DNA of 15,299 nucleotides, from the NCBI GenBank assembly GCA_016180645.1, contig JACPAV010000061.1:1-15299 (forward strand). The letters are read 5' to 3'. Positions within the stretch are counted from its first letter, which is position 1, and each line of letters opens with the position of its first letter. The stretch comes from Nitrospirota bacterium (GTDB lineage: Bacteria; JACPQY01). The notes under the pieces were generated by a model. That model did not search any database, was not told the DNA's origin, and was given only the letters and a program-made list of their open reading frames with translations. This document shows, one piece after another, positions 217 to 14,427 of this stretch. The position numbers and the translations under genes were made by a program.

Positions 217-245
217 TGGAGTTTCGAGGTCAACATCGATAGACT
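217..245 (+). promoter_or_regulatory. Putative nfo promoter, leaderless geometry
   Basis: TGGAGT (217-222), a 17-bp spacer and TAGACT (240-245) precede the nfo ATG at 252, leaving only 6 nt after the -10. Transcription would start at or next to the A of ATG. No Shine-Dalgarno sequence lies before the start. The -35 is weak (3 of 6 to consensus); the main support is that the same layout recurs before the NHL lipoprotein and smc. Confidence 0.4.
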
Positions 246-251
246 CGGCCG

Positions 252-1133
252 ATGAGCAATCCCCATTCGCACCTCCTCCTTGGCGCGCATGAATCGATCG
301 CCGACGGATTTCATTCGGCCTGCGTGAGGGGGGAGGAGGATTCCTGCGAGGTCATCCAAATCTTCACCCGCAGCTCGCGCCAGTGGTCGGCGCCCAAGCT
401 GAACCCCGAAGACGTGTCCGAATGGGAGAATGCCGTGGCGCGATCCACCGCCCGGCCGTTCCTTGTTCACGATTCCTACCTCATCAACCTCGGCTCGCCG
501 AAGAAACGCATCCACGCCGCTTCGATGCGCGCGTTCAAGGACGAACTGGTTCGGGCCGAAGCCCTCTCGATCCCCAATCTGGTCATGCATCCCGGCGCGC
601 ACATGGGGGAGGGGGAAGAAGTCGCGCTGGAGCGCATCGCGGAGAGCATCACGAAAGCCATCCAGGAAACGTCAGGCCACCGCGTTCGCATTCTTCTCGA
701 AAACACGGCAGGCCAGGGCAGCACGGTGGGATATCGATTCGAACACCTGCGGCGGATCCTAGACCTTGTGAATAATGAAGACCGTATGGGGGTGTGTCTC
801 GATACATGCCATCTGTTCACATCGGGTTACGACATCCGCACGAGCGAGGGGTATCACCGCGTGTTCCAGGAGTTCGAGCGAATCGTCGGCCTAAAGTGGC
901 TCAAGGCCTTCCACTTGAACGATTCGAAGAAGCCACTCGATTCCCGCGTGGATCGTCACGAGCACATCGGGCTCGGTCATATCGGTCTCGATCCATTCCG
1001 ATGGCTGATGAACGACGAGCGGTTCGCCCACTTGGGCGGAGTATTGGAAACTCCAGTCCGCGAAAACCGCCGAACGTTCAAGGAGGATCTGGAGGTGCTT
1101 CGAGGCCTCAGGATCAACCCCAAATCGGCTTGA
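252..1133 (+). CDS. nfo: Endonuclease IV (apurinic/apyrimidinic endonuclease)
   Basis: This 293-residue protein is a complete endonuclease IV, the TIM-barrel enzyme that cuts DNA 5' of abasic sites and trims blocked 3' ends in base excision repair in the cytoplasm. All nine trinuclear-zinc ligands of the family are visible: His73, His113, Glu150, Asp184, His187, His221, Asp234, His236 and Glu266, with the same spacing as in the E. coli enzyme. Hallmark segments are MHPGAH (112-117), LLENTAGQG (148-156), LDTCH (183-187), FHLNDSK (220-226) and DRHEHIG (234-240). ATG 252 gives a normal family length and N-terminus; it has no Shine-Dalgarno sequence but sits 6 nt after a possible -10 box. The gene stands alone. 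Its stop codon (1131-1133) lies inside the -35 box proposed for the next gene. Identification is secure. Confidence 0.97.
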   Translation: MSNPHSHLLLGAHESIADGFHSACVRGEEDSCEVIQIFTRSSRQWSAPKLNPEDVSEWENAVARSTARPFLVHDSYLINLGSPKKRIHAASMRAFKDELVRAEALSIPNLVMHPGAHMGEGEEVALERIAESITKAIQETSGHRVRILLENTAGQGSTVGYRFEHLRRILDLVNNEDRMGVCLDTCHLFTSGYDIRTSEGYHRVFQEFERIVGLKWLKAFHLNDSKKPLDSRVDRHEHIGLGHIGLDPFRWLMNDERFAHLGGVLETPVRENRRTFKEDLEVLRGLRINPKSA

Positions 1134-1158
1134 CTTTGCGGCATCGCACGAGTAGCGT
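1130..1158 (+). promoter_or_regulatory. Putative promoter of NHL lipoprotein gene, leaderless geometry
   Basis: TTGACT (1130-1135, 5 of 6 to the sigma-70 -35) is followed by exactly 17 bp and TAGCGT (1153-1158), then 7 nt to the ATG at 1166. The start would fall 1 nt before or at the initiation codon, giving a leaderless mRNA. The -35 overlaps the nfo stop codon, so the lipoprotein gene would have its own promoter although it follows nfo by only 32 nt. No ribosome binding site precedes the ATG. Confidence 0.55.
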
Positions 1159-1165
1159 AGCCAGA

Positions 1166-3166
1166 ATGCGTACTTCTATGAAAACCTGTGGGAATCCCCG
1201 CGAGATCTCATTTCGACTCGGCGCCCTCGCCGCGTTGCCGCTCCTCATCGCGTCCTGCGGAGGCGGAGGAGGGGGCGGGGCGAAAACGGTCATCACCCAA
1301 AAGTGCCAACCAGACATTGAATGCACTCTCAAATACGAGCCCGAGATCAACGGCGCAAAGAAGCTGCTATTTGAGCTCTCTATCCCCGCAGGCGCACTGG
1401 AAGAGGCAGTGGAGATTTCGATCGAGAAATCGGACGAGGAAGACCCGGGGCTGTCTGCGGAAGCGACCTACAAGGTACTTCCGGAGTCGCTCAAGTTCGT
1501 CGCCGGCAAGAAGGCAGGTCTCATCCTGGGGTACGGAGAGGAACTTGACAAGCTCACGGAGGAACAGAAGCTCGAGCTGGCTCTCAGCGAAGAAGGGCTT
1601 CGGATTGGAAAAAGGAATCTTGAGGGAGGGTTCGACCTCGTGAAGGATTCCGGTCCTCCCCGCCTGGATGTGGATCAGATCACGGGCGAAGTGACCGGCC
1701 CCGGTGAATACGCCGTGGTGTACAACCCCCTCATTTTTTCCGTCTCTCCGGAAGTAGGGCGTCCGACCACCGTCGATCCAGCGGGCACGAAAACTGACGG
1801 TACGACCATCACGGTATCGGGGCTGAACTTCAAGGCTGATGAGGGCACTCTGGTTGTCATGTTCAACAAGATTCCGGTCACGGAGGACATCAAATATGCC
1901 GACGGCAAGGGCGACTCGGAATTCACCCTCATTCTGCCTGAGCTCTCCGCAGGAAAGAAGGAAGAGGACCTCAAAGGCGCGCTGACCATTACCGTGACGA
2001 ACAGCAGCGGCAAGAAACGGACAAGCAACGCTGTGATGTGGGGCTTCGGGACCGGATTCGACGCGGCGGTGTATGATTTGTCCATCTCGAAGGGCAAGCT
2101 GGCCCAGCCGGGATCGGAGTGCACGGAGGCCGAGTGTTTTACTCAGCCGTGGGGAATCGCCGTGGATCAATTTGATTGCATCTACGTCGCGGATTCCGCC
2201 AACCATCGCATCAAGAAATTTACGTCCTCGATCACGCCCGTGAGCAAAGATACGGCGTGCGTGGCATTCGATCCCACCGGAAGTGCCCCCACCTTCATGA
2301 TTGGGAAGAAGGGCGATCCCGCGGTGGACGACAAAGGCGCAAGCACCGAGATCGGAAAGGAACCCCTCTTTAACACGCCGTTGGGTCTGGCGGTGGATGT
2401 GAAGGGAAATATTTACGTGGCGGACAGTTTGAACCACCGGGTCGTCATGTTGGACAAACTCGGAAAGGTGGTCGCCCTCTTCGGCAAGTATGGAACCGGG
2501 ACCGACAAGACGACTGAGAAGGCAACCGAGGACGAGCTCAACCAGCCCTCCGGCATCGCCGTGGACCCGGATGGGAACCTATACGTTGTGGATACCCTCA
2601 ACAACCGGATCGTCTATTTCAAGATAACCACCGCGACGACCAAGAACGATAAGGACATCGAAACGACAACCACCACGGCGAAACAGGACACCGCCCGCAA
2701 GCTCGGACCCACTCTCGGCGATGCTGTGGGGAAGGCGACGGCCATCAACTTCCTGGGGGAACCTTCGGCCGTAGCCTACGACTCCGCCAGCACGCCGCAT
2801 CGAATTTTCTTTGCGGATCCCGGCAACTACCGGGTGGTCTACTTCAAGCGGAATGCGGACAAGAAGATCGATGAACTCGACAAGGCGGTCGGGCAGCCGG
2901 CCCGGACGAACGAAGGAAAGGATGATCTGTTCCTGAAGCCTGTCGGGGTGACGGTGGACATCCGCAGTTCAATCTACGTGGTGGACAAGCTCGCGGCCCG
3001 CGTTCAGAAGTTCGATCGCAGCGTCAGGGCTCTTCCAAGCTCGGTGGGGAATTCGAAGGACAGGACCCAGCTCTCCGAACCCACAACGATGGTCGTGGAT
3101 TCCAAGGCCAGCTTATATGTCCTCGACCGTGCGCTGAGCAAGGTCCAGAAGTTCTCGCCCCGTTAG
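1166..3166 (+). CDS. Lipoprotein with ZU5-like, IPT/TIG and six NHL repeats
   Basis: The 666-residue product starts with a lipoprotein signal peptide: Arg/Lys N-region, hydrophobic core (about 18-28) and lipobox I-A-S-C with the acylated Cys at 31. Seven glycines follow the Cys, and no Asp is at +2, so outer-membrane sorting is expected. Residues about 65-185 carry an IPAGAL motif (73-78) and look like a ZU5-type beta domain. Residues about 188-293 resemble an IPT/TIG immunoglobulin-like fold. Six NHL blades run from about 325 to the C-terminus; blade 1 reads GIAVDQFDCIYVADSANHRI and later ones decay (NYR, AAR, LSK). A Thr/Lys-rich insert (about 487-512) separates blades 3 and 4. A cell-surface binding propeller is inferred; no enzyme signature or ligand is evident. 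The frame is open upstream to 794, but that part overlaps nfo and lacks the signal peptide, so ATG 1166 (or 1178) is the start. Confidence 0.9.
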   Translation: MRTSMKTCGNPREISFRLGALAALPLLIASCGGGGGGGAKTVITQKCQPDIECTLKYEPEINGAKKLLFELSIPAGALEEAVEISIEKSDEEDPGLSAEATYKVLPESLKFVAGKKAGLILGYGEELDKLTEEQKLELALSEEGLRIGKRNLEGGFDLVKDSGPPRLDVDQITGEVTGPGEYAVVYNPLIFSVSPEVGRPTTVDPAGTKTDGTTITVSGLNFKADEGTLVVMFNKIPVTEDIKYADGKGDSEFTLILPELSAGKKEEDLKGALTITVTNSSGKKRTSNAVMWGFGTGFDAAVYDLSISKGKLAQPGSECTEAECFTQPWGIAVDQFDCIYVADSANHRIKKFTSSITPVSKDTACVAFDPTGSAPTFMIGKKGDPAVDDKGASTEIGKEPLFNTPLGLAVDVKGNIYVADSLNHRVVMLDKLGKVVALFGKYGTGTDKTTEKATEDELNQPSGIAVDPDGNLYVVDTLNNRIVYFKITTATTKNDKDIETTTTTAKQDTARKLGPTLGDAVGKATAINFLGEPSAVAYDSASTPHRIFFADPGNYRVVYFKRNADKKIDELDKAVGQPARTNEGKDDLFLKPVGVTVDIRSSIYVVDKLAARVQKFDRSVRALPSSVGNSKDRTQLSEPTTMVVDSKASLYVLDRALSKVQKFSPR

Positions 3167-3186
3167 AGGTTTCCTCGAGTGGTTTC

Positions 3187-3209
3187 GCGGAGCCTGAAGG
3201 CTCCGCTAC
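3187..3209. repeat. Hairpin repeat between convergent genes, possible terminator
   Basis: A perfect 8-bp stem, GCGGAGCC (3187-3194) with GGCTCCGC (3199-3206), closes a TGAA loop. It lies in the 107-bp gap between the lipoprotein gene and the convergent phosphatase gene. There is no T-run on either side, so it is not a textbook intrinsic terminator, although a convergent gap is where one is expected. Its right half plus flank (3197-3209) is repeated exactly at 93-105, so it is probably a dispersed repeat that may help end both transcripts. Confidence 0.55.
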
Positions 3210-3273
3210 GGAATCATCGTTTCTCCCTTGTAGCCGGCCTTTTGGGGTCCTCGTCGAACCGCCCCTGAATGAG

Positions 3274-4098
3274 CTACAGTCTCGTCAACTCCACCAGGAC
3301 AACGGTGATGTTGTCCATCCCACCCGCGATCTTCGCGCGCTCGATCAGGTCATCGGCCATCGTGTCGAGGTTGTCCCCGCTCAGCGCCTCCAGGATTTCG
3401 TCCGCACGGATCATATTCGTCAGGCCGTCCGAGCAAAGCAGGTAGCGGTCTTTCTCGCGCAGTTCGTTCTGGAAAACATCCACGTCCACGTGCTCGTCAA
3501 GCCCCACGCATCGCGTCACCACATTTTTCAAATAGTGGGCCTCCGCCTCCACACTGGATAGCCGCCCCTCGCGAACCTGCTCCTGGACCCACGAGTGGTC
3601 CTGGGTTACGAGATGGAGTTCTCCCTCCCGGACCAGGTAGGTGCGGCTGTCTCCGAGGTTGGCGACGTAGGTGTACAAGCCGTCCTCATTCGCCGGGTCC
3701 ACCCACAAGGATGTGAGCGTGGTCCCCATGCCTTTGTATTTCGGATTGTTCTTGGCGTACTCGTAAACGATGCGGTTGGCTTCCTCCATCGACTTCCGCA
3801 GGATGACTTCGTGTGCGTCCCGAGGGGCGGCCGGTCCTTTGAACGCGCGGGTGAGACGGTGGAAGAGCGGTTGCCGCTGGGTGGATTCCGGATCATCCGC
3901 CGAACGCTCTCGCACATGTCGCAGGAGGCCGTCTTGAAGCCCCTTGACACAGAGTTGGCTCGCCAGTCCCCCGCCGATGTGTCCGCCCATGCCGTCGGCC
4001 ACGGCGTAGAGACCCATTTCCTCATTCACGAGGAAGGAGTCCTCGTTCTTCTCGCGCCAGTTGCCGATGTCCGTTCGAGCCGCATGCCGGATGATCAT
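3274..4098 (-). CDS. PP2C-family serine/threonine protein phosphatase
   Basis: This 274-residue soluble protein is a complete bacterial PP2C (PPM) metal-dependent phosphatase of the Stp/PrpC type, which removes phosphate from Ser/Thr residues, usually opposing Hanks-type kinases. Metal-site motifs are present in order: NED (18-20), ADGMGGH (34-40, Asp35), GMGTT, NLGDSR, SDGL (Asp224) and GGMDN (Asp262). A roughly 30-residue charged insert (ERSADDPESTQRQ...) follows the first part of the core. ATG 4098 gives MIIRHAARTDIG, the usual beginning of the family; the frame stays open to 4320, but that extension translates the palindromic repeats upstream and is rejected. The gene is last in the minus-strand run, 136 nt after pmbA and separated from it by a repeat pair. 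No kinase is in the window, so the partner is unknown. No clear Shine-Dalgarno sequence is visible. Confidence 0.93.
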   Translation of the reverse strand: MIIRHAARTDIGNWREKNEDSFLVNEEMGLYAVADGMGGHIGGGLASQLCVKGLQDGLLRHVRERSADDPESTQRQPLFHRLTRAFKGPAAPRDAHEVILRKSMEEANRIVYEYAKNNPKYKGMGTTLTSLWVDPANEDGLYTYVANLGDSRTYLVREGELHLVTQDHSWVQEQVREGRLSSVEAEAHYLKNVVTRCVGLDEHVDVDVFQNELREKDRYLLCSDGLTNMIRADEILEALSGDNLDTMADDLIERAKIAGGMDNITVVLVELTRL

Positions 4099-4125
4099 GG
4101 TCGTAGGCCTGCACCCCCACCCACA

Positions 4126-4201
4126 CCCTCCCCCTTCGAGGGGGAGGGGAACAAAGGTTCGCGCCGCTCCCTCTCGTCCCTTCCCCCCTTGAGGGGGAAG
4201 G
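4126..4201. repeat. Inverted pair of REP-like GC-rich hairpins
   Basis: Two related palindromes fill the pmbA-phosphatase gap. The first pairs CCCTCCCCCT (4126-4135) with AGGGGGAGGG (4139-4148) across a 3-nt loop. The second pairs CCTTCCCCC (4179-4187) with GGGGGAAGG (4193-4201). The pyrimidine-rich tail left of the first (CACCCCCACCCACACC) reappears as its complement to the right of the second, so the two units lie in opposite orientation, like a REP/BIME pair. Such elements are common in Gram-negative genomes and can stabilise upstream mRNA or weaken read-through. Here that would uncouple pmbA from the phosphatase gene. Confidence 0.75.
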
Positions 4202-4234
4202 TGGGGATGGGGGGTGCTGAAAGGATGGTCATGG

Positions 4235-5593
4235 TCAGTTCCCGCTGATCTGAAGGTTTGAGACGAGGAGCGAGGGGGAGCCGATCGATCCCATGAATCG
4301 GAGGTCGTTGGCCACGGCATCCACGTGCTTGAAAAGCGTTTTCAGGTTCCCCGCAATCCCGAATCCGCGAAGGGGGCCGGCGGGCTTCCCTTTCGCAATC
4401 TCCTGCCCCACGGCGCCGAGCGAGAATTCGCCCGAAATTGGATCTGCCGTGTGGAGGCCGATGACCTCCGTGATGAGCACGCCGCTTCCGCACTCTGAAT
4501 GGAGACGGTCCGGAGACCACGTTCCGGCTTCCACGTGCAAGTTGGAGGGTGCGAGGACGGGGGCAGATTGGCTCGCGCCGCGCCGCGCGTTTCCCGTCGA
4601 GCCGCGCCGGCTCTTGTTGCCCCAGTAAGTGTCGCAGAGGAGGGTGCGAAGCAGGCCTCGTTCCACAACCGTGGAGCGCTGGGCCGGCACGCCTTCGCCG
4701 TCGAAGGGCGCCGCGTTCGCCCCGCGGGTTTCCAAGCCATTGTCGACCAGCGTGAGATGTTTCGAGAGGATCAACCGGCCCACCGCATCGCCCCAAAGCG
4801 ACTTCTTCTTCATCGTATTCTCGACGAGAAACGAGGGCGCAAGGAGGGATAGAAATTCGGCGGCCACGTGGTTTTCCAGGACCACGGGACACTCCCGGGT
4901 TTTCGGAACACGGCCTCCCAGTCGGGATACGGCTTTGCGGGCGACTTTTTTCCCGAGCGCTTCGGCGTCGAGTTCGTGGAGAAACGAGGAAAATTGGAAA
5001 TCCCACGCGTTTTCCGATTCTCCGCCTTTCTCCGCCACGGCCATGAGACTCAGACTGCAATAGGTTTTCGAGTAACTCGACTGGAGTCCGTTCGAATTGG
5101 CGAGATAGACCGTTCCGAAGATCTCATCGTAGGCGGACTTCCGAACGCGCTTCACGGCCCGGTGGGCCCGGAGCGAGGAGGCTTCCAGCTCGAGCGCGAG
5201 CTTGATCTTCTCCTCATCGGGCGTGGAAGGGACGTGTGCGTCGTACAGGTTGACCGCGGGGAGTGGTGCGGGTGTCGACTTGGGGAAGGCATGGTGTTCG
5301 TCCGCATCCAGGCACCGAGCCGTTCCCGCGGCAAATTGAAGCGCCCGGCGCACGGCATCCGGCGTGAGTTGAGTGGCATATGAAAAGCCCATGCGTCCGT
5401 CTAGAAGGAGGCGGACCCCTAGGGTCGTCGTCTCTGCACGGTCTCTCGCATGGATCTCCTGCCCTTTGACTTCGATGCTTTGCTCCGCGAGATGGGCTAC
5501 GTAGGCTTCCCACTGGCGGGCCTTGAGGCGCCTGGATTCGATCAGGATCGTTTCCAGGATCCGTTCAATCGCGCCCTCTTCCAAAGCCTGCAC
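4235..5593 (-). CDS. pmbA: TldE/PmbA-family metalloprotease subunit
   Basis: This 452-residue protein matches the TldD/PmbA (peptidase U62) family and has the length of E. coli PmbA (TldE). TldE pairs with TldD in a cytoplasmic protease that degrades unfolded peptides and matures ribosomal peptides such as microcins. Family landmarks include PFDGEGVPAQRSTVVERGLL, the region ending SNLHVEAG, and HTADPISGEFSLGAVGQEI near the C-terminus. The HExxxH zinc motif that marks TldD is absent, so this is the non-metal-binding subunit; the HELDA stretch does not complete the motif. The start is GTG 5593, 2 nt after the argA stop, with GGGAG about 8 nt upstream, implying translational coupling to argA. 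No tldD is in the window, so it must lie elsewhere if the heterodimer forms. Confidence 0.93.
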   Translation of the reverse strand: MQALEEGAIERILETILIESRRLKARQWEAYVAHLAEQSIEVKGQEIHARDRAETTTLGVRLLLDGRMGFSYATQLTPDAVRRALQFAAGTARCLDADEHHAFPKSTPAPLPAVNLYDAHVPSTPDEEKIKLALELEASSLRAHRAVKRVRKSAYDEIFGTVYLANSNGLQSSYSKTYCSLSLMAVAEKGGESENAWDFQFSSFLHELDAEALGKKVARKAVSRLGGRVPKTRECPVVLENHVAAEFLSLLAPSFLVENTMKKKSLWGDAVGRLILSKHLTLVDNGLETRGANAAPFDGEGVPAQRSTVVERGLLRTLLCDTYWGNKSRRGSTGNARRGASQSAPVLAPSNLHVEAGTWSPDRLHSECGSGVLITEVIGLHTADPISGEFSLGAVGQEIAKGKPAGPLRGFGIAGNLKTLFKHVDAVANDLRFMGSIGSPSLLVSNLQISGN

Positions 5594-5595
5594 GG

Positions 5596-6048
5596 TTACA
5601 ACTCCCGGATGACGGCGATTTCCTGGCAGTCCTTAAACCGCGAGCAGTAGACACAGTCTTTCCACACCTTCTGTGGAAAGCTGAGACGATCGGCCACGGC
5701 GAATCCGGTCCGCTTGAAAAACTCGGGCCGGTAGGTGAGTGCGAACACCCGGCGCAGGCCGAGTTTGCGCGCCTGCCGCAGGCAGCGCCGCACGAGTTTG
5801 ATGCCCCAATCCTGGCCGCGATGGCCGGCGTCGACCACGAGCGATCGGATCTCGCACAACTCCGGAGAGTAGATTTTGAGGGCGCACGTTCCGATCATAC
5901 TCCTCGATCGGTTGGTTGCCACGACAATGGTGGGGAGGTCCTTCGTGATGTCCTCCTCGTCGCGCGGCAGGATTTCCCCCCTTTGCGCCTCCTGCGAGAT
6001 GAGACGCAGGATTTTCGGGATGTCCGAGGTGGTGGCGGGACGGATCAT
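5596..6048 (-). CDS. argA: Short ArgA-type N-acetyltransferase (probable N-acetylglutamate synthase)
   Basis: This 150-residue protein is a single GNAT acetyltransferase domain. It has the ALKIYSPELCEIRSLVV strand, an acetyl-CoA loop region (DAGHRGQDWGIKLV; the usual R/Q-x-x-G-x-G/A is degenerate as RGQDWG) and FALTYRPEFFKRTGF. The C-terminus ends in a Cys motif, FPQKVWKDCVYCSRFKDCQE. From family knowledge, that combination marks the stand-alone short ArgA proteins of Deltaproteobacteria and relatives, which acetylate glutamate in the first step of arginine synthesis without the amino-acid-kinase domain of E. coli ArgA. A different GNAT substrate cannot be excluded. The ATG at 6048 follows a GAGGGTGGTGGG stretch and lies inside one arm of a large dyad (6044-6119). 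It is followed 2 nt later by pmbA. Confidence 0.8.
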   Translation of the reverse strand: MIRPATTSDIPKILRLISQEAQRGEILPRDEEDITKDLPTIVVATNRSRSMIGTCALKIYSPELCEIRSLVVDAGHRGQDWGIKLVRRCLRQARKLGLRRVFALTYRPEFFKRTGFAVADRLSFPQKVWKDCVYCSRFKDCQEIAVIREL

Positions 6049-6119
6049 CCCACCACCCTCTTCAAAATCTCACATTTCAAATTTGAAATCTCAAATTCGG
6101 AGGAAGGGGGTGGGATCAT
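6044..6119. repeat. 76-bp palindromic (MITE-like) element at the argA start
   Basis: A perfect 16-bp palindrome, ATTTCAAATTTGAAAT (6074-6089), sits at the exact centre of a larger imperfect dyad. Outer arms 6044-6063 and 6100-6119 match at 16 of 20 positions, and about 29 of 38 positions pair over the whole element. It is AT-rich in the middle and GC-rich at the arms. The left arm contains the argA start codon and its purine-rich leader, so in the argA message the ribosome site would be paired. It looks like a small non-coding palindromic insertion that now forms the recN-argA gap. Confidence 0.65.
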
Positions 6120-6201
6120 GGCCTGCGACTCGGCAAGGAATTCCTTCTCAAACGACACGGCGGGGAACGGCGAAACTCCCATCCGAACGGATCGGTCGAT
6201 G

Positions 6202-7899
6202 CTAGCGTGGAGCTATCCGCAGCAACTCTGCGGCGTAGGCACGCGCCTTATCCGATATTTTTTCTCCCCCGAGCATGCGGGCCAGCTCTTCGAGCCGTTC
6301 CTCGCGGCCGAGTTCGACAATTTCCGTAACCGTCCGCGATCCCGCGCGGCGTTTGCGAACGAGAAAATGGGCGTCCCCGAAACAGGCGATCTGCGGCAGA
6401 TGCGTGATGCAGAGGATCTGGTGGCGACGCGACAGCTCGCGCAGTTTTCGCCCTACGGCTTCCGCCACGGCGCCTCCGATTCCGGCATCGACTTCATCGA
6501 AGATCAGTGTCGCACCTTCCTTTTTTTTCGACAAGATGTTCTTGAGGACGAGCATGATGCGGGACCGCTCCCCGCCGGAAGCGATCCGGCTGAGGTCCCG
6601 GAGGGGCTCGCCGGGGTTGGCCGAAAAATCGTATCCGATCGTCATCGTCGGCGTGGCGGAGACGAGCCACTTTCCCGCGTCGTCCACCTTCGCCGGCTTG
6701 CCGTCCTGGTCCATCCAACCGGGCGTGAGCGTCACGGCGAAACGGGCTTTGGCCAGCCCCACCTCCTCGCATCCGGCTTCCACTTCGCGGGCCAGCCGAT
6801 CCGCGAACCTGCGGCGCTCCTTCAAGAACTTTTCGGCGCGGACCGCAAAGGCTTCCCAATCGGCCTCAAATCTCTTGGCCAGCGCGCCCCGGTCCGTTTC
6901 CTTCCTGGAAAGCTCCTCGATCTCCCTCGCCCCCTCCTCGGCCAGCCGCAACACGCTGTCCAGATCCGGCCCGTACTTCTTCTTGAGTCGATCGAGCTGA
7001 TAGAGGCGCTCCTCCACGGATTCGAGCCGCTTCGGATCGAATTCCATACTGCCCAGGTAGGAGGAGATGTCGCGTGCGGCGTCCTGGATCAGGGATTTCG
7101 CCGAGGCCAGCCCCTCGGCCATGGGAGTAAGACGCGGATCGATTTCACCGAGGGTCCGAATGGATTCCGCGTGTCGTCCGACCTGCTCCACCACGGATCC
7201 ATCGGTCGAGTAGAGAGCGCGGTCCGCCTCCCCGAGGGCTTGGGCGATTTTTTCGGCGTGGGCGAGGATGTTCCGCTCGGACTCCAATTCGTGATCTTCA
7301 TTCGGCCGGATGCGGGCCCCTTCGATCTCGTGGACCTGGAAGGAAAGAAGATCAATGCGTTCCCTGCGGGCTTTTTCCAGGCGGTCAAAATCGCGAAGTT
7401 CTTCATACAATCGGGCCACGGTCCTGCGTTCCTCTTCAAGTTTCTCGGCGGCTTCCTCCAGTCCTCCGAACTCATCGAGGTACGCCATCTGTTTTGCCGT
7501 GAGAACGAGGTCCATGTACTCGTGCTGGCCGTAGATTCCCACGAGCCGGCGGCCGAGATCCTCAAGCTGGCCGAGGGTGGCGCCGTCTTCATTGAACGTG
7601 ACTTTGCCCCGGCCTTCGCGGGTGATCTTCCGTCGGATCGTGAGTGCGGTCCCGTTCGAAGAAGCGGGCGCTGCCTGCGCAATCCCGCGCGTGTCGAATT
7701 GCGCCTCGAGGACGGCTTCCTCCCGCTCGGCACGGATCAGGTCGGCATGGGCCCTCGCGCCCAGGAGGAGATCGAGCGCGCCGATGATGATGCTCTTTCC
7801 GGCGCCGGTTTCGCCGGTGATCACGTTGAACCCTTCGCCGAGGTTGAGCTGGACCTCGTCGATGATCGCGAAATCCTTGATGCGCAGTTGCCGGAGCAT
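6202..7899 (-). CDS. recN: DNA repair protein RecN (SMC-like ATPase)
   Basis: A complete 565-residue RecN, close to the usual 550-570. RecN is a cytoplasmic SMC-like ATPase that gathers broken DNA ends for RecA-dependent double-strand break repair. The Walker A motif GETGAGKS is at 29-36, a long coiled coil occupies the middle, the ABC signature ASGGERSRIMLVL is near 440, and Walker B LIFDEVDAGIGG near 465 is followed by CITHLPQIA. ATG 7899 gives the standard MLRQLRIKDFAII beginning. No Shine-Dalgarno sequence is seen, and I found no convincing LexA-type operator upstream. It lies 161 nt downstream of nadK, a neighbour it has in many bacteria, with four small hairpins between them. Confidence 0.97.
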   Translation of the reverse strand: MLRQLRIKDFAIIDEVQLNLGEGFNVITGETGAGKSIIIGALDLLLGARAHADLIRAEREEAVLEAQFDTRGIAQAAPASSNGTALTIRRKITREGRGKVTFNEDGATLGQLEDLGRRLVGIYGQHEYMDLVLTAKQMAYLDEFGGLEEAAEKLEEERRTVARLYEELRDFDRLEKARRERIDLLSFQVHEIEGARIRPNEDHELESERNILAHAEKIAQALGEADRALYSTDGSVVEQVGRHAESIRTLGEIDPRLTPMAEGLASAKSLIQDAARDISSYLGSMEFDPKRLESVEERLYQLDRLKKKYGPDLDSVLRLAEEGAREIEELSRKETDRGALAKRFEADWEAFAVRAEKFLKERRRFADRLAREVEAGCEEVGLAKARFAVTLTPGWMDQDGKPAKVDDAGKWLVSATPTMTIGYDFSANPGEPLRDLSRIASGGERSRIMLVLKNILSKKKEGATLIFDEVDAGIGGAVAEAVGRKLRELSRRHQILCITHLPQIACFGDAHFLVRKRRAGSRTVTEIVELGREERLEELARMLGGEKISDKARAYAAELLRIAPR

Positions 7900-7927
7900 G
7901 GCGGGCTGCGACTACGACCCCAGGTCG

Positions 7928-8039
7928 GGACAGCTCCACCTGTCCGCCGCCCCTGGTCTGGGGCGTGAAATGTCCGCAGGCATAAAGCCTGCGCCTACCC
8001 AGGGTGCGGGTTCTTGGTAGCCGCGGGCTTCAGACCGCG
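7928..8039. repeat. Run of four short hairpins between nadK and recN
   Basis: Four consecutive inverted repeats occupy this 161-bp gap: GGACAG/CTGTCC (7928-7945), CGCCCC/GGGGCG (7948-7965), CGCAGGC/GCCTGCG (7975-7993) and CGCGG/CCGCG (8022-8039). The last resembles CCGCGGCCTTCAGTCGGCG at about 14923-14941 (16 of 19 positions shared). The third ends AAGCCTGCGCCTAC, close to the 13-mer at 93 and 3197. They appear to be different members of dispersed repeat families that have accumulated here. None has a T-run like an intrinsic terminator. Confidence 0.65.
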
Positions 8040-8060
8040 TCCCCGGATTCGTGTCTCTAA

Positions 8061-8933
8061 CTACCGACCGCCCCACTTGAGTTTCGTGCGGAGAATCTCG
8101 AAGGGATCGGGGGCGGCGTGGTTGAGTTTGATGACGTTCAAATCCTGCGAGGCCCGGTGAACTTCGAGTACGTCCTGGCTCACCAGGGGGCAGCCGACCT
8201 GGCCGTCGAGCGTGAGCTGCGTGTCGGAGGGGTCTTTGGCGTTCAATACGATTCGCACCCGGGAGGTGGCCGGGAGGACGAGTGGGCGGTTGGTGAGCGT
8301 ATGAGGACAGATCGGTGTGAGCACGAGGCAGTCCAGCGTGGGGGAAACGATCGGCCCGCCCGCGGCCAGGGAGTAGGCCGTCGATCCGGTCGGGGTGGAC
8401 ACGATCAAGCCGTCCGCCCGGAACACCGTCACCGGCTTCCCGTCCACTTCGGTCGACATTTCGATCATCCGCGCGATCGCGCTCTTGGTGATGACGGCAT
8501 CGTTCAGGGCGGACTCGGAGAGCAGTGTCCGCCCGTCGCGAAGGAGCGTCGCTTCAAGCCGCATGCGATGCGCGATCTTGTAGTCACCCGCGATCAACTG
8601 CTCCATCGCCTGCGTGGCGCCGTCGAGCGGAACTTCCGTGAGATATCCCAGACTGCCGAGATTGACGCCCAAAACCGGAACGCCCGTGTCGCTTACGAGC
8701 CGTGCTCCCCACAGGAACGTTCCGTCGCCGCCCAAGACGAGCAGCGCGTCGGTGTCCCGATGGACCAGTTGCCGTTCGGGAATGCCTTCCTTGCCGATCA
8801 GAGCGGCGGCGCCCGCTTCGAGTGAAAAGCGGACCTTCCTGTCAGTCAACCATTCTGAAAGATGACGAACCACCCGGGCCGCATCCTTGTGCTCCCGTTT
8901 CGCCAGAACGGCAACATTCGAAACTTTTTTCAC
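8061..8933 (-). CDS. nadK: NAD kinase (ATP-NAD kinase)
   Basis: This 290-residue cytoplasmic enzyme phosphorylates NAD to NADP. Diagnostic motifs are VLGGDGTFLWG (the catalytic GGDG at 68-71), LGVNLGSLGYLTE, the substrate-binding ND (144-145, in place of the common NE) and the glycine-rich STPTGSTAYSLAAGGP (179-194). The C-terminal half is the usual beta-rich domain. The start is GTG 8933; no Shine-Dalgarno sequence precedes it (the leader is pyrimidine-rich). It is the first gene of the minus-strand run nadK-recN-argA-pmbA-phosphatase and is divergent from smc. A promoter candidate lies 15 nt upstream. Confidence 0.96.
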   Translation of the reverse strand: MKKVSNVAVLAKREHKDAARVVRHLSEWLTDRKVRFSLEAGAAALIGKEGIPERQLVHRDTDALLVLGGDGTFLWGARLVSDTGVPVLGVNLGSLGYLTEVPLDGATQAMEQLIAGDYKIAHRMRLEATLLRDGRTLLSESALNDAVITKSAIARMIEMSTEVDGKPVTVFRADGLIVSTPTGSTAYSLAAGGPIVSPTLDCLVLTPICPHTLTNRPLVLPATSRVRIVLNAKDPSDTQLTLDGQVGCPLVSQDVLEVHRASQDLNVIKLNHAAPDPFEILRTKLKWGGR

Positions 8934-8948
8934 GTTGAACCGGAGGCG

Positions 8949-8977
8949 AAATTAGCACATCGATGGGGTGGAGTCCA
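8949..8977 (-). promoter_or_regulatory. Putative nadK promoter
   Basis: On the minus strand, TGGACT (8977-8972), a 17-bp spacer and TAATTT (8954-8949), with a TG one base before the -10, lie upstream of nadK. There are 15 nt from the -10 to the GTG, so the predicted leader is about 8 nt, too short for a normal Shine-Dalgarno interaction. The call rests only on matches to consensus and on its position in the divergent gap. Confidence 0.45.
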
Positions 8978-9092
8978 CGCGCGGCCCGCCCGCCCGAGCA
9001 TTCCCGCCGAAAAACCCCAAAGATTACTTTAGGTTACGCATACCATATCTTGTAGCGCAATGCGGCCTACCACTCCATATAGTGATTTTTGC

Positions 9093-9121
9093 TTTACAAA
9101 CCGAACCTCGTTTGTTAGGCT
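9093..9121 (+). promoter_or_regulatory. Putative smc promoter with internal dyad, leaderless geometry
   Basis: TTTACA (9093-9098), 17 bp and TAGGCT (9116-9121) lie 7 nt before the smc ATG at 9129, so the transcript would begin at about the start codon. No Shine-Dalgarno sequence is present. The spacer holds a dyad, ACAAAC (9096-9101) and GTTTGT (9110-9115) separated by 8 bp, which overlaps the -35 and abuts the -10. This is where a repressor operator would sit, though I recognise no specific regulator. Confidence 0.5.
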
Positions 9122-9128
9122 ACCGCGA

Positions 9129-12100
9129 ATGCGAATTCGCAAGCTGACCCTTCTGGGTTTCAAGTCCTTCCCGGAGAAAACGGAGTTCGTCTTTCCCGAG
9201 GGATTGACGTGCATCGTCGGTCCAAACGGCTGCGGCAAGACGAACATCGTGGACGCCATCCGTTTCTGTCTCGGCGAGCAAAGCGCCAAGAAACTCCGCG
9301 GAAAATCGGTGGTGGACATGGTGTTTGGGGGCACCTCGGGCAAGGCGGCGATGAATTTCGCCGACGTCTCCATGACCTTCGACGTTCAGAAGGGAGAACT
9401 TCCCGAGCCGTATCATGAAATCGAGGAGTTCGAAGTCCGCCGCGTGCTCTACCGATCGGGCGAAAGCGAATACTACATCAACCGCACCCCCAGCCTGTTG
9501 AAGGATATCTACGACCTTTTCTACGGCACGGGTCTTTCGCCGTACTCCTACGGCATCATGGATCAATCGGATGTGACCCGGCTCATCACCATGCACGTGG
9601 AGGAGCGGCGCCTCCTTCTGGAAGAGGCCGCCGGCATCACGAAGTTCCGTCGGAAACGGCAGGAAGCCGAGCGAAAGATGGAACGCACGAGGGTGAATCT
9701 CCAGCGCGTCGAGGACGTCCTTGCCGAGGTGGAGCGCCAGAAGCGGAGCCTCGAACGACAGGCGAAAAAAGCTCAGAAGCTCAAAGAATTGAACGAAGAG
9801 CTCCGGGCGAAGGAGCTGATCATGTACAAGGCCCAGTGGCGGGGCCTGAGAGCCGCGCTGGACCGTGTGGAGCAGGAGGAGACGGAGGAGCAGCGGCTGC
9901 GGGATGAATTGAGCGCTTCCTTGAGCACGCTGGAGTCCGAGCGGGAGCGCATCGAACTGGAATCAGTGCAGGTAGAGGAAGACCTCCGGCGGCTCCGCGA
10001 GGAGTTCCACCGCGCGGAGATCGACCAGGAGCAGTGTCGCGGGCAGATCGAGAAACACCGGGCGGACAAGGCCGCGTTGGAGCGCCGGACAAGCGAGCTC
10101 CGCGCTCAGGCCGACGCGCTTCGGGCCGACGTGGAGGCGGCGGATCGGAAGCTCGCCGAACTGGACGCCGAGCGCCGGGACGTGGAAGAAAATCTAAACC
10201 GGCTCCGGCTCCAGCTCTCCGAGAGGCGCCCGCGCCGCGAGGAATTGATCGCCCGCATGCAGTCACTTCGGGAGCAGGAAGACCGCCTCGAACAGGAACG
10301 CCTGGAGCGAATGGCCCAGGTTGCGGAACTCGAACGTGTGGTCGCTTCCGCCGAGGGGCGCCGCCATGAAACGGAAAAGCGCCGCGTGGAGCTGGAAAGC
10401 CGCCGCCAACAGCTCTTGTTCTCCGAACAGGAGATGGTGGAACAGACCAGGGGAATCGAAGATCTCCGCGCGAAAACGGCGGTGCTCCTGGAGGAAAATG
10501 GTCGTCGCCTCGAAAGCGTCGAAGAGCACCTTCGGAACCTTTCCCGGGTGTACGGCGAGCGGATCAATGACCGCCGCCAGAAACGGGACGACGTCGAGCG
10601 CCTGAGCGCCACTCGCACCTCCCTCCAAACGCTGCAAGAGACGTACTCGGGTTTCCATGAGGGCGCCCGTCAGATTCTTCTCAAGTGGGGCCGGAACGGA
10701 ATTAAAGGCACCGTGGCGGAAGTGTTGGACGTGCCCGAGCGCTATCGCCAGGCGGTGGAAGCCTCGCTCGGCGTCCTGCTGGAGGCGATCGTCACCGATA
10801 CAAGAAGCTACGGAATGCAGGCCATGGACTATCTTCGTTCCGAAGACCTCGGCCGGGCATTTTTCGTCGCCCTGGACGCGCCCGCCGGAAACGGCGCCTC
10901 GCCCATGGAGGATCCGAGGCCGGAGAACGCGGAGCGTCTGATCGAAAAAATTCAACCGAAGCCCGGCTATGAGAGCGTGGCCGAGCGCCTCCTGTCGCAC
11001 GTCTGGGTGGTGGACCGGATTGAAGACGTGTTCGCGCTTCCGCCCTCCTCTAGGGCGACCTACGTCACGAAGTGGGGCGAGGTGAGTCATCCGCAAGGCG
11101 TGCTCGCGGGCGGCGCCCAGGCCAAACAGGAAACCGCCTCGCTGGCCTGGCTCGAACGGAAGGAGAAACTTCAACAGATCGACGAGCAGCTCACGGCGAT
11201 GCAGTCCGCCCTTTCGCAGATCGAAGAGGAAATTCCTTTGATGGAAGCGCGGCGAACCGAGCTGGAATCGGAGCGGGAAAAGGAACGCCTCGCGCAGGTG
11301 GACCTCCAGGCCCAGATCGCCCGGTTTCAGGCGGAGAAGGAGGGCGTGGCCCGAGTGATGCAGACCTCCGGTTCGGCCGCGGTTTCGCAGGAGGAAGACA
11401 GCATCCAGCGCACCATCGGTGAACTTTCCACCGTTCTGGACACCGCGCAGCAATCGCTGGATCAATTCCGGGGACAGCAGCAGGCCCTCGCGGAGAAAAT
11501 CGCCGGGGTGAGGCGGGAGCACGAGGCGGCCGGCCTGGGCCTGGCCGAGACCGAAAAAGGGATCAACGAACTGGCGTTCACTGAGGTCCAACTCGACGAA
11601 CGGCATCAGCAATTGGCGAAGGCTTCGGTGGAGATCGAACGGGGGCGGGAACAGGTTTTGGAGCGTTTCGAGCGGCTCGAGGCGGAGATCGGGGAATCGG
11701 CGGCACCCGTGGCCGCGTTGGACAAGGCGATCGCGGAGGCCGAATCGCGGCTTTCCGATCTCCAGGAACAGGCCCGCATGGCGCGGGAAGAAGTGGCCAA
11801 GGCGGAAGAGACCATCCGCCAACTCCGGGATCGCCGGGGAGCTTTGGAATCCGACGCCAAATCCACCCGGGAGCGTCTACGCCAGGTGGAGGAGCGCGTG
11901 GCGGAGTTGTCGGTGGAAAAGGCGACATCGGCCATGCACATGGATCGCACCAACCAGGAAGCTCGAGAGCGTTGGGGGGTGGAGGATCTGGCGGCACTGG
12001 AAGCGGCTCCGCCCGAGGACCTCGAAGCGCTGACGGCCTCGGTTGCCGAACTGCGGGATCGGAAAACGAAAATGGGTGACGTGAATATGGAGTCTCTCGC

Positions 12101-12713
12101 GGAATACGATGAACTTAGTCAGCGGTTCACCTTCCTGACTGAGCAGAGGGACGACATTCAGAAATCGATCGAGCAGCTCCGCGAAGCGATCGCCAAGATC
12201 AACCGGGTTTGCCGCGAACGGTTTGATCAGATTTTCGAGGAGGTCAGCAAGAAATTTTCTGAGGTATTTGCCGGCTTGGTCCGAGGGGGGAAGGGCGAAC
12301 TCCGGCTGATCGAGCCGCCGCCGCTCCCCGAAGGCGAGATCGAGGACGAAGAGGCGGCTTCGCGGCGGTCCAAGCGAGAACGCGGCGTGGATATCTACGC
12401 CAAGATGCCCGGCAAGACCATGGCGAGCCTCAACCTCCTGTCCGGTGGTGAGAGGGCCCTGACGGCGTTCTCGCTCCTGCTCTCGCTATTCCTCGTTCGT
12501 CCGAGTCCGTTCTGCATTCTCGACGAGGTGGACGGCCCGTTGGACGATTCCAACGTCCATCGATTCGCCCAGACCATCGGCGAGATGGGGAAAACCAACC
12601 CCTTCCTGGCCATCACGCACAACAAAGTGACGATGAAATACGCAGGCACCCTCATCGGCGTCACCATGGAAGAGGACGGCATCTCCAAACTCGTCTCCGT
12701 CAAAGTCGCGTAG
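9129..12713 (+). CDS. smc: Chromosome segregation ATPase SMC
   Basis: A full-length 1194-residue SMC, the core of the condensin-like SMC-ScpAB complex that compacts and segregates the chromosome. The N-terminal head has Walker A GPNGCGKTN (31-39), a Cys/Thr variant of the usual GSGKSN. Two long heptad-rich coiled coils flank the hinge (about 505-660, including FHEGARQILLKW and GVLAGG). The C-terminal head has the signature LNLLSGGERALTAFSLLL (about 1100) and Walker B FCILDEVDGPLDDSNV (about 1128), where Gly replaces the more usual Ala after DEVD. ATG 9129 gives the classical MRIRKLTLLGFKSF beginning; the open frame back to 9060 crosses the promoter and is not used. scpA and scpB are not in the window. 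The gene is 68 nt from a convergent recombinase gene. Confidence 0.97.
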   Translation: MRIRKLTLLGFKSFPEKTEFVFPEGLTCIVGPNGCGKTNIVDAIRFCLGEQSAKKLRGKSVVDMVFGGTSGKAAMNFADVSMTFDVQKGELPEPYHEIEEFEVRRVLYRSGESEYYINRTPSLLKDIYDLFYGTGLSPYSYGIMDQSDVTRLITMHVEERRLLLEEAAGITKFRRKRQEAERKMERTRVNLQRVEDVLAEVERQKRSLERQAKKAQKLKELNEELRAKELIMYKAQWRGLRAALDRVEQEETEEQRLRDELSASLSTLESERERIELESVQVEEDLRRLREEFHRAEIDQEQCRGQIEKHRADKAALERRTSELRAQADALRADVEAADRKLAELDAERRDVEENLNRLRLQLSERRPRREELIARMQSLREQEDRLEQERLERMAQVAELERVVASAEGRRHETEKRRVELESRRQQLLFSEQEMVEQTRGIEDLRAKTAVLLEENGRRLESVEEHLRNLSRVYGERINDRRQKRDDVERLSATRTSLQTLQETYSGFHEGARQILLKWGRNGIKGTVAEVLDVPERYRQAVEASLGVLLEAIVTDTRSYGMQAMDYLRSEDLGRAFFVALDAPAGNGASPMEDPRPENAERLIEKIQPKPGYESVAERLLSHVWVVDRIEDVFALPPSSRATYVTKWGEVSHPQGVLAGGAQAKQETASLAWLERKEKLQQIDEQLTAMQSALSQIEEEIPLMEARRTELESEREKERLAQVDLQAQIARFQAEKEGVARVMQTSGSAAVSQEEDSIQRTIGELSTVLDTAQQSLDQFRGQQQALAEKIAGVRREHEAAGLGLAETEKGINELAFTEVQLDERHQQLAKASVEIERGREQVLERFERLEAEIGESAAPVAALDKAIAEAESRLSDLQEQARMAREEVAKAEETIRQLRDRRGALESDAKSTRERLRQVEERVAELSVEKATSAMHMDRTNQEARERWGVEDLAALEAAPPEDLEALTASVAELRDRKTKMGDVNMESLAEYDELSQRFTFLTEQRDDIQKSIEQLREAIAKINRVCRERFDQIFEEVSKKFSEVFAGLVRGGKGELRLIEPPPLPEGEIEDEEAASRRSKRERGVDIYAKMPGKTMASLNLLSGGERALTAFSLLLSLFLVRPSPFCILDEVDGPLDDSNVHRFAQTIGEMGKTNPFLAITHNKVTMKYAGTLIGVTMEEDGISKLVSVKVA

Positions 12714-12781: not shown

Positions 12782-14427
12782 TCAGTCCTGGCACACCCCC
12801 AGTGTGGCCACGCCGTTCACGTTGACGTTCTTCGGAATGGCCCCTAAATCGCTACCGGATCGAAACTCTCCGAGGGGGATCGTATGTCGGATCACGAGTT
12901 GACCGTCTTGGACGATGACACGATCGAGCACGAGGCGCAAGATCTTCACCTTCGACTCGAAGTTCGGACGTTCGAGTGCCCCGTGAATATTCTTACAGAA
13001 GACCTCCACACCTTCGACCAGGTGCAAGCTCCTCTGCCGCTCTTTTTGTTTCTCCTCGATTTCCTTCAGCCGCGCCTCCATGAGCGTCTGATGAGCGGCA
13101 ATCGACTCGCGCCTCTGCTTGAGATCCTCCAGCGCTAGGATGCCCGCCTGGTAGCCGTCGATGAGACGTTGGTCCTCGCGCTCCAAGGCCCGTAGGCGCG
13201 TGTGGAGCCGCTTGATCTCCTGATCCTCGATGAGGTCTTGGGATGCTTCTCCGTGGCCTCGGGCGTACTGCTCCAAGAGGATCTTCGGATCGAGGAGCAT
13301 CTGTCGCACCGTGTCCCACACCCGCTCTTCCACCGGCTGTGCGGCAACGAAGCCCCCGCACACCGATCGGGGCGATACGACGGATATCGGGCGGTACAAA
13401 GATAGCGTCGGTAGTGGGGCGTGCGCGTCGAGGTCAGCCCGTGCATGCGCCGCCCACACGCACCGCAGACGAGGAGACTCTTGAGCAGGTATCGCCCGGG
13501 GGTCGCGTGGCCCGGATTCCACGTTCGATTCTTCTCGATCTGTTTCTGGGCCTTCTCCCAGATCTCCTCCGACACAAGGGCCGGAGCCGGAACGGGAATC
13601 CATTCCGCGGGGGGTCTCTTCCGGCGACTCCTCGCGATCCCCGGTCGAAGGTCCTTGAAGCTCTGGGCACCCCGCGGACGGGCGGGGGGCGTGTCCACCG
13701 TCGTCAGCACGTTGTAGTACCGAAGCCCCTTGTACACGGAGTTCTTGACCATCCCCGTCAAACCGGAGACATGCCACCGAGTCTTCCCCTCCTGGGTCGG
13801 AACGGCCCGCTCGGTCAAGCGATGCGCGATCCGCCCGAGCGAGAGTTCCTCCTCGACGAGCCAGCGATAGATTTCACGCGCAACCTCCGCCTCCGGCTCG
13901 TACACCTTGAGCAGGCCTCCCCCTCCCTCCGCCCGCTTCCACGTCCGATACCCGTACGGGGCACGGCCGCTCGTGATCCGACCCTGACGGGCCAGGTAAA
14001 TCCGTCCACGCCTGGTTCTTTCAGCGATGAGTTTTCTTTCATACTCGCTGAACACGCCCTGGATCTGGAGGAGCATCTGGTCCTCCGACCGATCTGAATA
14101 GGTCCGGTTGAGAAACACGATTTCGACACCCGCCCGGCGAAACTCCTCCAAGAGAATCACCTGATACGGAAACTGCCGGGCGAGTCGGTCGGGGGCATAG
14201 GCCAGAATCGCCTCCAGCTTCCCCTCGTACACGTCGTCCCTCAGCCGCTCCAAACCCGGACGGTCCAGACGGGACCCCGTGAACACATCGGTGTACTCGC
14301 GGCTCCCGTCCACCCGATACTCGTGCTCGCTCGCGTATCGATGAAGCGCGTCGAGCTGGCTCTCCATCGTCGCCTCGTCCTCCTGCCGGTCCGTCGATAC
14401 ACGCGCATAAATGGCTGCAATCTTCAT
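12782..14427 (-). pseudogene. Large serine recombinase, split by a single frameshift
   Basis: Two overlapping minus-strand frames together encode one large serine recombinase of about 548 residues. The first frame (14427 down to about 13358) has the resolvase catalytic domain: YARVSTDRQ with nucleophile Ser11, then YAPDRLAR and the long helix E. The recombinase domain (APYGYRTW to about 260) and a Cys-rich zinc ribbon (VCGACGRRMHG, YLCTARY, DRC) follow. The second frame (13357 to 12782) supplies the coiled coil and C-terminal domain (ERVWDTVRQML through IPLGEFRSG). The shift occurs in a G5 tract (13353-13357 on the plus strand); a sixth G would restore one frame. Unshifted, the first frame reads on to 13135, giving a 430-residue protein with an aberrant tail. 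ATG 14427 has a strong AAGGAGG site. Such enzymes integrate or excise mobile DNA. A sequencing indel is as likely as a true mutation. Confidence 0.88.
13353..13357 (-). other. Homopolymer at the recombinase frameshift
   Basis: Reading the minus strand, codons TGT GCG GGG GCT leave the correct frame, whereas TGC GGG GGC TTC is the downstream correct frame. The switch is equivalent to one missing G in this G5 run, or to a ribosome slipping back one base on GGG. The zinc-ribbon sequence ends at DRC just before it, and VAAQPVEERVWD resumes just after it. Confidence 0.75.

Follow-up and report, generated by a model that had tools for sequence, protein, structure and literature searches.

Probable membership of the nfo, NHL-repeat lipoprotein and smc promoters in a genome-wide leaderless class of a Nitrospirota bacterium

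We have analyzed a stretch of 15,299 nucleotides (the window) from a Nitrospirota bacterium and found that the promoters of three of its genes, nfo, an NHL-repeat lipoprotein gene and smc, are with high probability members of a genome-wide leaderless class in which transcription would start at the ATG or 1 nt before it. Judging from the sequence, it is very likely that the three predicted mRNAs begin directly at the start codon. This was the original prediction, and it is supported by a genome-wide peak of TANNNT in the source genome (G000) and in a relative (G001), together with the posteriors of the three genes in a model trained without them. From the computed features (motif, position, 17-bp spacer, genome-wide enrichment and held-out scores) we infer a transcription start, the absence of a leader and a route of translation. 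Ordinary housekeeping (sigma-70-type) promoters would set the start of transcription on the A of the ATG or on the base preceding it, and the leaderless mRNAs would be translated without Shine-Dalgarno (SD) pairing, the ribosome recognizing the 5'-terminal AUG. The class to which the three genes are assigned would comprise about a quarter of the genes leading transcription units, alongside SD-led genes, and would also be present in the related genus of G001.

All three genes are located on the plus strand. The first, nfo (252..1133), codes for endonuclease IV (deoxyribonuclease IV; TIGR00587, 8e-89) and is preceded by a -35 element TGGAGT (217..222) and a -10 element TAGACT (240..245), 6 nt from ATG 252. 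Its -35 is a weak match to TTGACA, with 3/6 bases in agreement, which counts against the leaderless reading; with the 17-bp spacer the held-out posterior was 0.98. The TAG inside this -10 doubles as an in-frame stop upstream of nfo. The NHL-repeat lipoprotein gene (1166..3166; PF01436) has TTGACT (1130..1135) and TAGCGT (1153..1158), the latter 7 nt from ATG1166, with a held-out posterior of 0.99. This promoter falls within the 32-bp junction between both genes, its -35 overlapping the stop codon of nfo. In front of smc (9129..12713; TIGR02168, 4e-270), coding for the chromosome segregation ATPase, we found TTTACA (9093..9098) and TAGGCT (9116..9121), 7 nt from ATG 9129 (held-out posterior 0.99). 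The -35/-10 spacer is 17 bp in all three cases. Direct reading thus finds the -35/-10 pairs, their spacer and the distances of 6, 7 and 7 nt exactly as they had been described, and the three -10 elements are also assigned by the model. The absence of SD sequences was equally borne out (SD posterior 0.00 for each gene in the mixture model). The description of the three as core genes applies to nfo and smc, which are core-type, and not to the NHL lipoprotein.

The starts of nfo and smc can be taken as secure on the evidence of the sequence, that of nfo being unambiguous. ATG252 is the first possible start past the in-frame stop and the only one ahead of the conserved core. ATG9129 yields the canonical SMC N-terminus MRIRKLTLLGFKSF, and the TIGR02168 alignment begins at residue 2. 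The start of the lipoprotein gene at ATG1166 is less certain than these, because a gene finder based on coding score prefers an in-frame ATG at 1178. The held-out model chose ATG1166, with a posterior of 0.99 vs 0.02 for ATG1178.

The window is one contig of a genome of 4.7 Mb and 60.5% GC. For the genome-wide test we used 1.53 Mb of this genome (about a third), and for comparison 0.68 Mb (about a fifth) of G001, which belongs to a different genus of the same family; every other genome compared in the search for relatives shares only the domain. Genes were called with a simple dicodon-model finder in which coding score alone decides the start, and upstream regions were anchored at the start. 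TANNNT was found at -12 in 37/633 leading genes of the source genome over a baseline of 4.7 per position (Poisson p ~7e-21), with a shoulder at -13 to -16, and in 14/293 leading genes of G001 over a baseline of 1.5. A peak near -12 had been set beforehand as the genome-wide check, and it appeared in both genomes. Operon-internal genes of the source genome showed no such peak (3/444 at -12), and neither did the Escherichia coli control (0/75), whereas a Deinococcus deserti plasmid, a small control of 150 kb, gave 5/75 at -12 over a baseline of 0.4. A TTG exactly 23 nt upstream, i.e., with a 17-bp spacer, accompanied 20 of the 37 sites at -12, neighboring offsets giving at most 1. When only TANNNT backed by a -35 was counted, 22 genes had it at -12, with a drop at -11, and the background was <1 per position over -200 to -31 (about 0.6-0.75 at -60 to -31). 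Leaderless status was shared by both members in 4 of 35 pairs of orthologues between the two genomes, a weak concordance (p = 0.39, in a small sample). For nfo, smc and 16S no match was found in G001, whose assembly is 84% complete; smc was missing although 40 candidates were scored, and incompleteness is the probable cause.

We also fitted a three-part mixture (leaderless promoter, SD, neither) by EM, with the window contig left out of training and the -35 matrix initially flat. The motif recovered in the source genome was TTGac[a], a spacer of 17 (77%), TAnaaT and an offset of -12 (40%), the weights for -12 to -15 being.40,.13,.14 and.16. The leaderless share of leading genes was estimated at about 23% in the source genome and 25% in G001, and the mean leaderless posterior was 0.23 in leading genes vs 0.04 in operon-internal ones. 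Applied to E. coli, the same model failed to yield a coherent promoter motif. Shuffled sequences produced 14 leaderless calls in 626 vs 144 in the real ones, so about 10% of the calls may be due to chance in the source genome; the proportion was higher in G001 (11 shuffled vs 71 real). A sizeable minority of the leading genes in the class, about a third, were placed at -14 to -16, for which the predicted leaders would be about 2-4 nt, i.e., near-leaderless mRNAs.

Among the alternatives, the one that survives best is a very short leader (1-5 nt) in place of none at all, whether or not further promoters lie upstream; the geometry would be unchanged, but some genes, among them those where the gap is 7 nt, would not be leaderless in the strict sense. 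The spread of the class over -12 to -15 fits this, as does the position of two of the three window genes at -13. Against it, the mode is exactly at -12, and TTG start codons are rarer in the leaderless class (1/144 vs 38/482, p = 6e-4), as expected if the RNA polymerase begins on the purine of A/GTG. We regard this alternative as unlikely, without being negligible.

That AT-rich matches upstream of the three genes arose by chance seems very improbable. Scanning the window with a generic sigma-70 consensus did give 2 promoters vs 2.3 expected and missed the three sites, so that the window alone is no proof of promoters, and it is the genome-wide statistics that supply it: the held-out posteriors were 0.98-0.99, and TANNNT at -12 or -13 is expected in only about 1.5% per gene. 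Similarly poor prospects await the idea of a distinct promoter subtype with a TAGNNT -10, for example one of an alternative sigma factor, reserved for the leaderless genes of this lineage. All three window sites are TAGNNT, and 39% of the G001 sites have G as the third base of their -10. In the source genome, on the contrary, only 12/56 sites backed by a -35 have G there and the third base is unconstrained (model frequencies A.21, C.31, G.27, T.20), with G in 29% of background TANNNT. The original proposal that TAGNNT is specifically tied to leaderless starts was consequently rejected, G not exceeding the background; three TAG out of three in the window is a coincidence of about 1%, noticed after the fact. 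Least tenable of all is an artefact of gene calling, in which the need for an ORF to follow an in-frame stop enriches TAG/TAA and mimics the peak at -12: the positions -12 and -15 are in frame and the nfo TAG is truly the in-frame stop, but the forms without a stop codon, TACNNT/TATNNT, likewise have a peak at -12 (20 vs a baseline of 2.8) and thereby exclude the stop-codon register as the cause, the out-of-frame positions -13 and -14 are enriched too, TGA is flat, operon-internal genes have no peak and the -35 is at a fixed distance.

The leaderless reading of the three genes does not imply that SD-led initiation is missing from this organism. In the source genome, SD sequences were found in 0/56 genes with a promoter backed by a -35 at -16 to -11 vs 148/570 of the others, although this depletion is partly trivial, because the -10 and SD motifs compete for the same bases. 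In G001 an SD-like string was present in 4/24 of such leaderless genes. The SD depletion that had been anticipated therefore holds for the leaderless genes only, and SD-led genes make up a second, normal class of the source genome. The 3' end of its 16S retains an intact anti-SD. The genome also encodes IF3 and a bS1-like protein, and nothing points to a loss of the ordinary initiation machinery; the bS1 match scores under the cut-off of its family, which is also the case in most control genomes.

The neighbors of the three genes are on the minus strand. Between 3274 and 8933 there are co-directional genes for a NAD kinase, a RecN/SMC-type ATPase, a GNAT acetyltransferase, a PmbA/TldD-like protease and a PP2C phosphatase, divergent from smc; at their called starts the mixture model found no leaderless promoter, and the SD was weak or absent. 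A large serine recombinase (Resolvase + Recombinase + zinc ribbon; 13135-14427) with a strong SD, AAGGAGG, is convergent with smc near the end of the contig and may mark the border of a mobile element.

Leaderless genes of this kind are already known in bacteria. Zheng et al. (2011, PMC3160421) described TA-led leaderless genes in 207/953 bacterial genomes, with a TA-like signal ~10 bp upstream of the start that in high-GC groups takes the form TAnnnT with uninformative middle bases. The source genome has this form and a high GC, and it displays the positional TANNNT peak, the confinement of the signal to genes leading transcription units and the lack of SD before leaderless genes that characterize the class; its lineage is close to only one genome compared (G001). 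The StartLink paper (PMC9581028) cites a figure of 21.6% of bacterial species predicted to use leaderless transcription. In Deinococcus-Thermus, TANNNT is located 6-7 bp before the ORF, with almost no variation in its initial TA or its final T, beside a GGAG SD class, and nearly one-third of all genes of D. radiodurans have been reported as leaderless (PMC12340547). The distance to the start codon and the coexisting SD class are common to our genome, which differs in its clear -35 (TTGac), its rigid 17-bp spacer and the smaller size of the class (about a quarter of leading genes). In Mycobacterium tuberculosis 26% of the genes with a primary start site are leaderless, with a TANNNT -10, an A/GTG start and no conserved -35 identified (PMC3898074); the -10, the start codons and the proportion of about a quarter are shared, whereas the -35 is strong in our genome.

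We have counted the pattern TTGA-N19-TANNNT-N6-RTG over 192 whole genomes, using as controls a 20-nt gap to RTG and the reversed pattern. The source genome had 67 cases vs 10 and 9 in the two controls, respectively, and G001 had 37 vs 13 and 3. Some unrelated genomes gave similar figures against the 20-nt gap control, 53 vs 4 (G030), 29 vs 7 (G177) and 62 vs 15 (G127), a 4- to 13-fold excess, and the first two share a family that looks like another lineage rich in leaderless genes. Geometry-specific excess over this control was absent in others, such as G040 (58 vs 55) and G107 (47 vs 48). The source genome is thus a strong example and not a unique one. As for the suggestion of a lineage trait, the TANNNT geometry does occur in two genera of one family, but other phyla are known to have it as well. 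We consider it a known bacterial leaderless class found here in a poorly sampled lineage, the novelty being modest and consisting of the lineage and of the complete -35 with its rigid 17-bp spacer. One could tentatively go further, with somewhat less than even confidence: a deep, poorly sampled lineage with leaderless starts in about a quarter of its leading genes and complete -35/-10 promoters of almost fixed 17-bp spacer, unlike the -35-poor ones of Mycobacterium, would suggest that leaderless translation evolved independently of promoter architecture.

This data adds one more poorly sampled lineage in which leaderless translation is predicted to be a major mode beside SD, and a genome of high GC whose leaderless genes have informative -35 elements. 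In such genomes the -10 would mark the start codon, so gene starts should be called with a leaderless model, as in the choice of ATG1166 over ATG1178.
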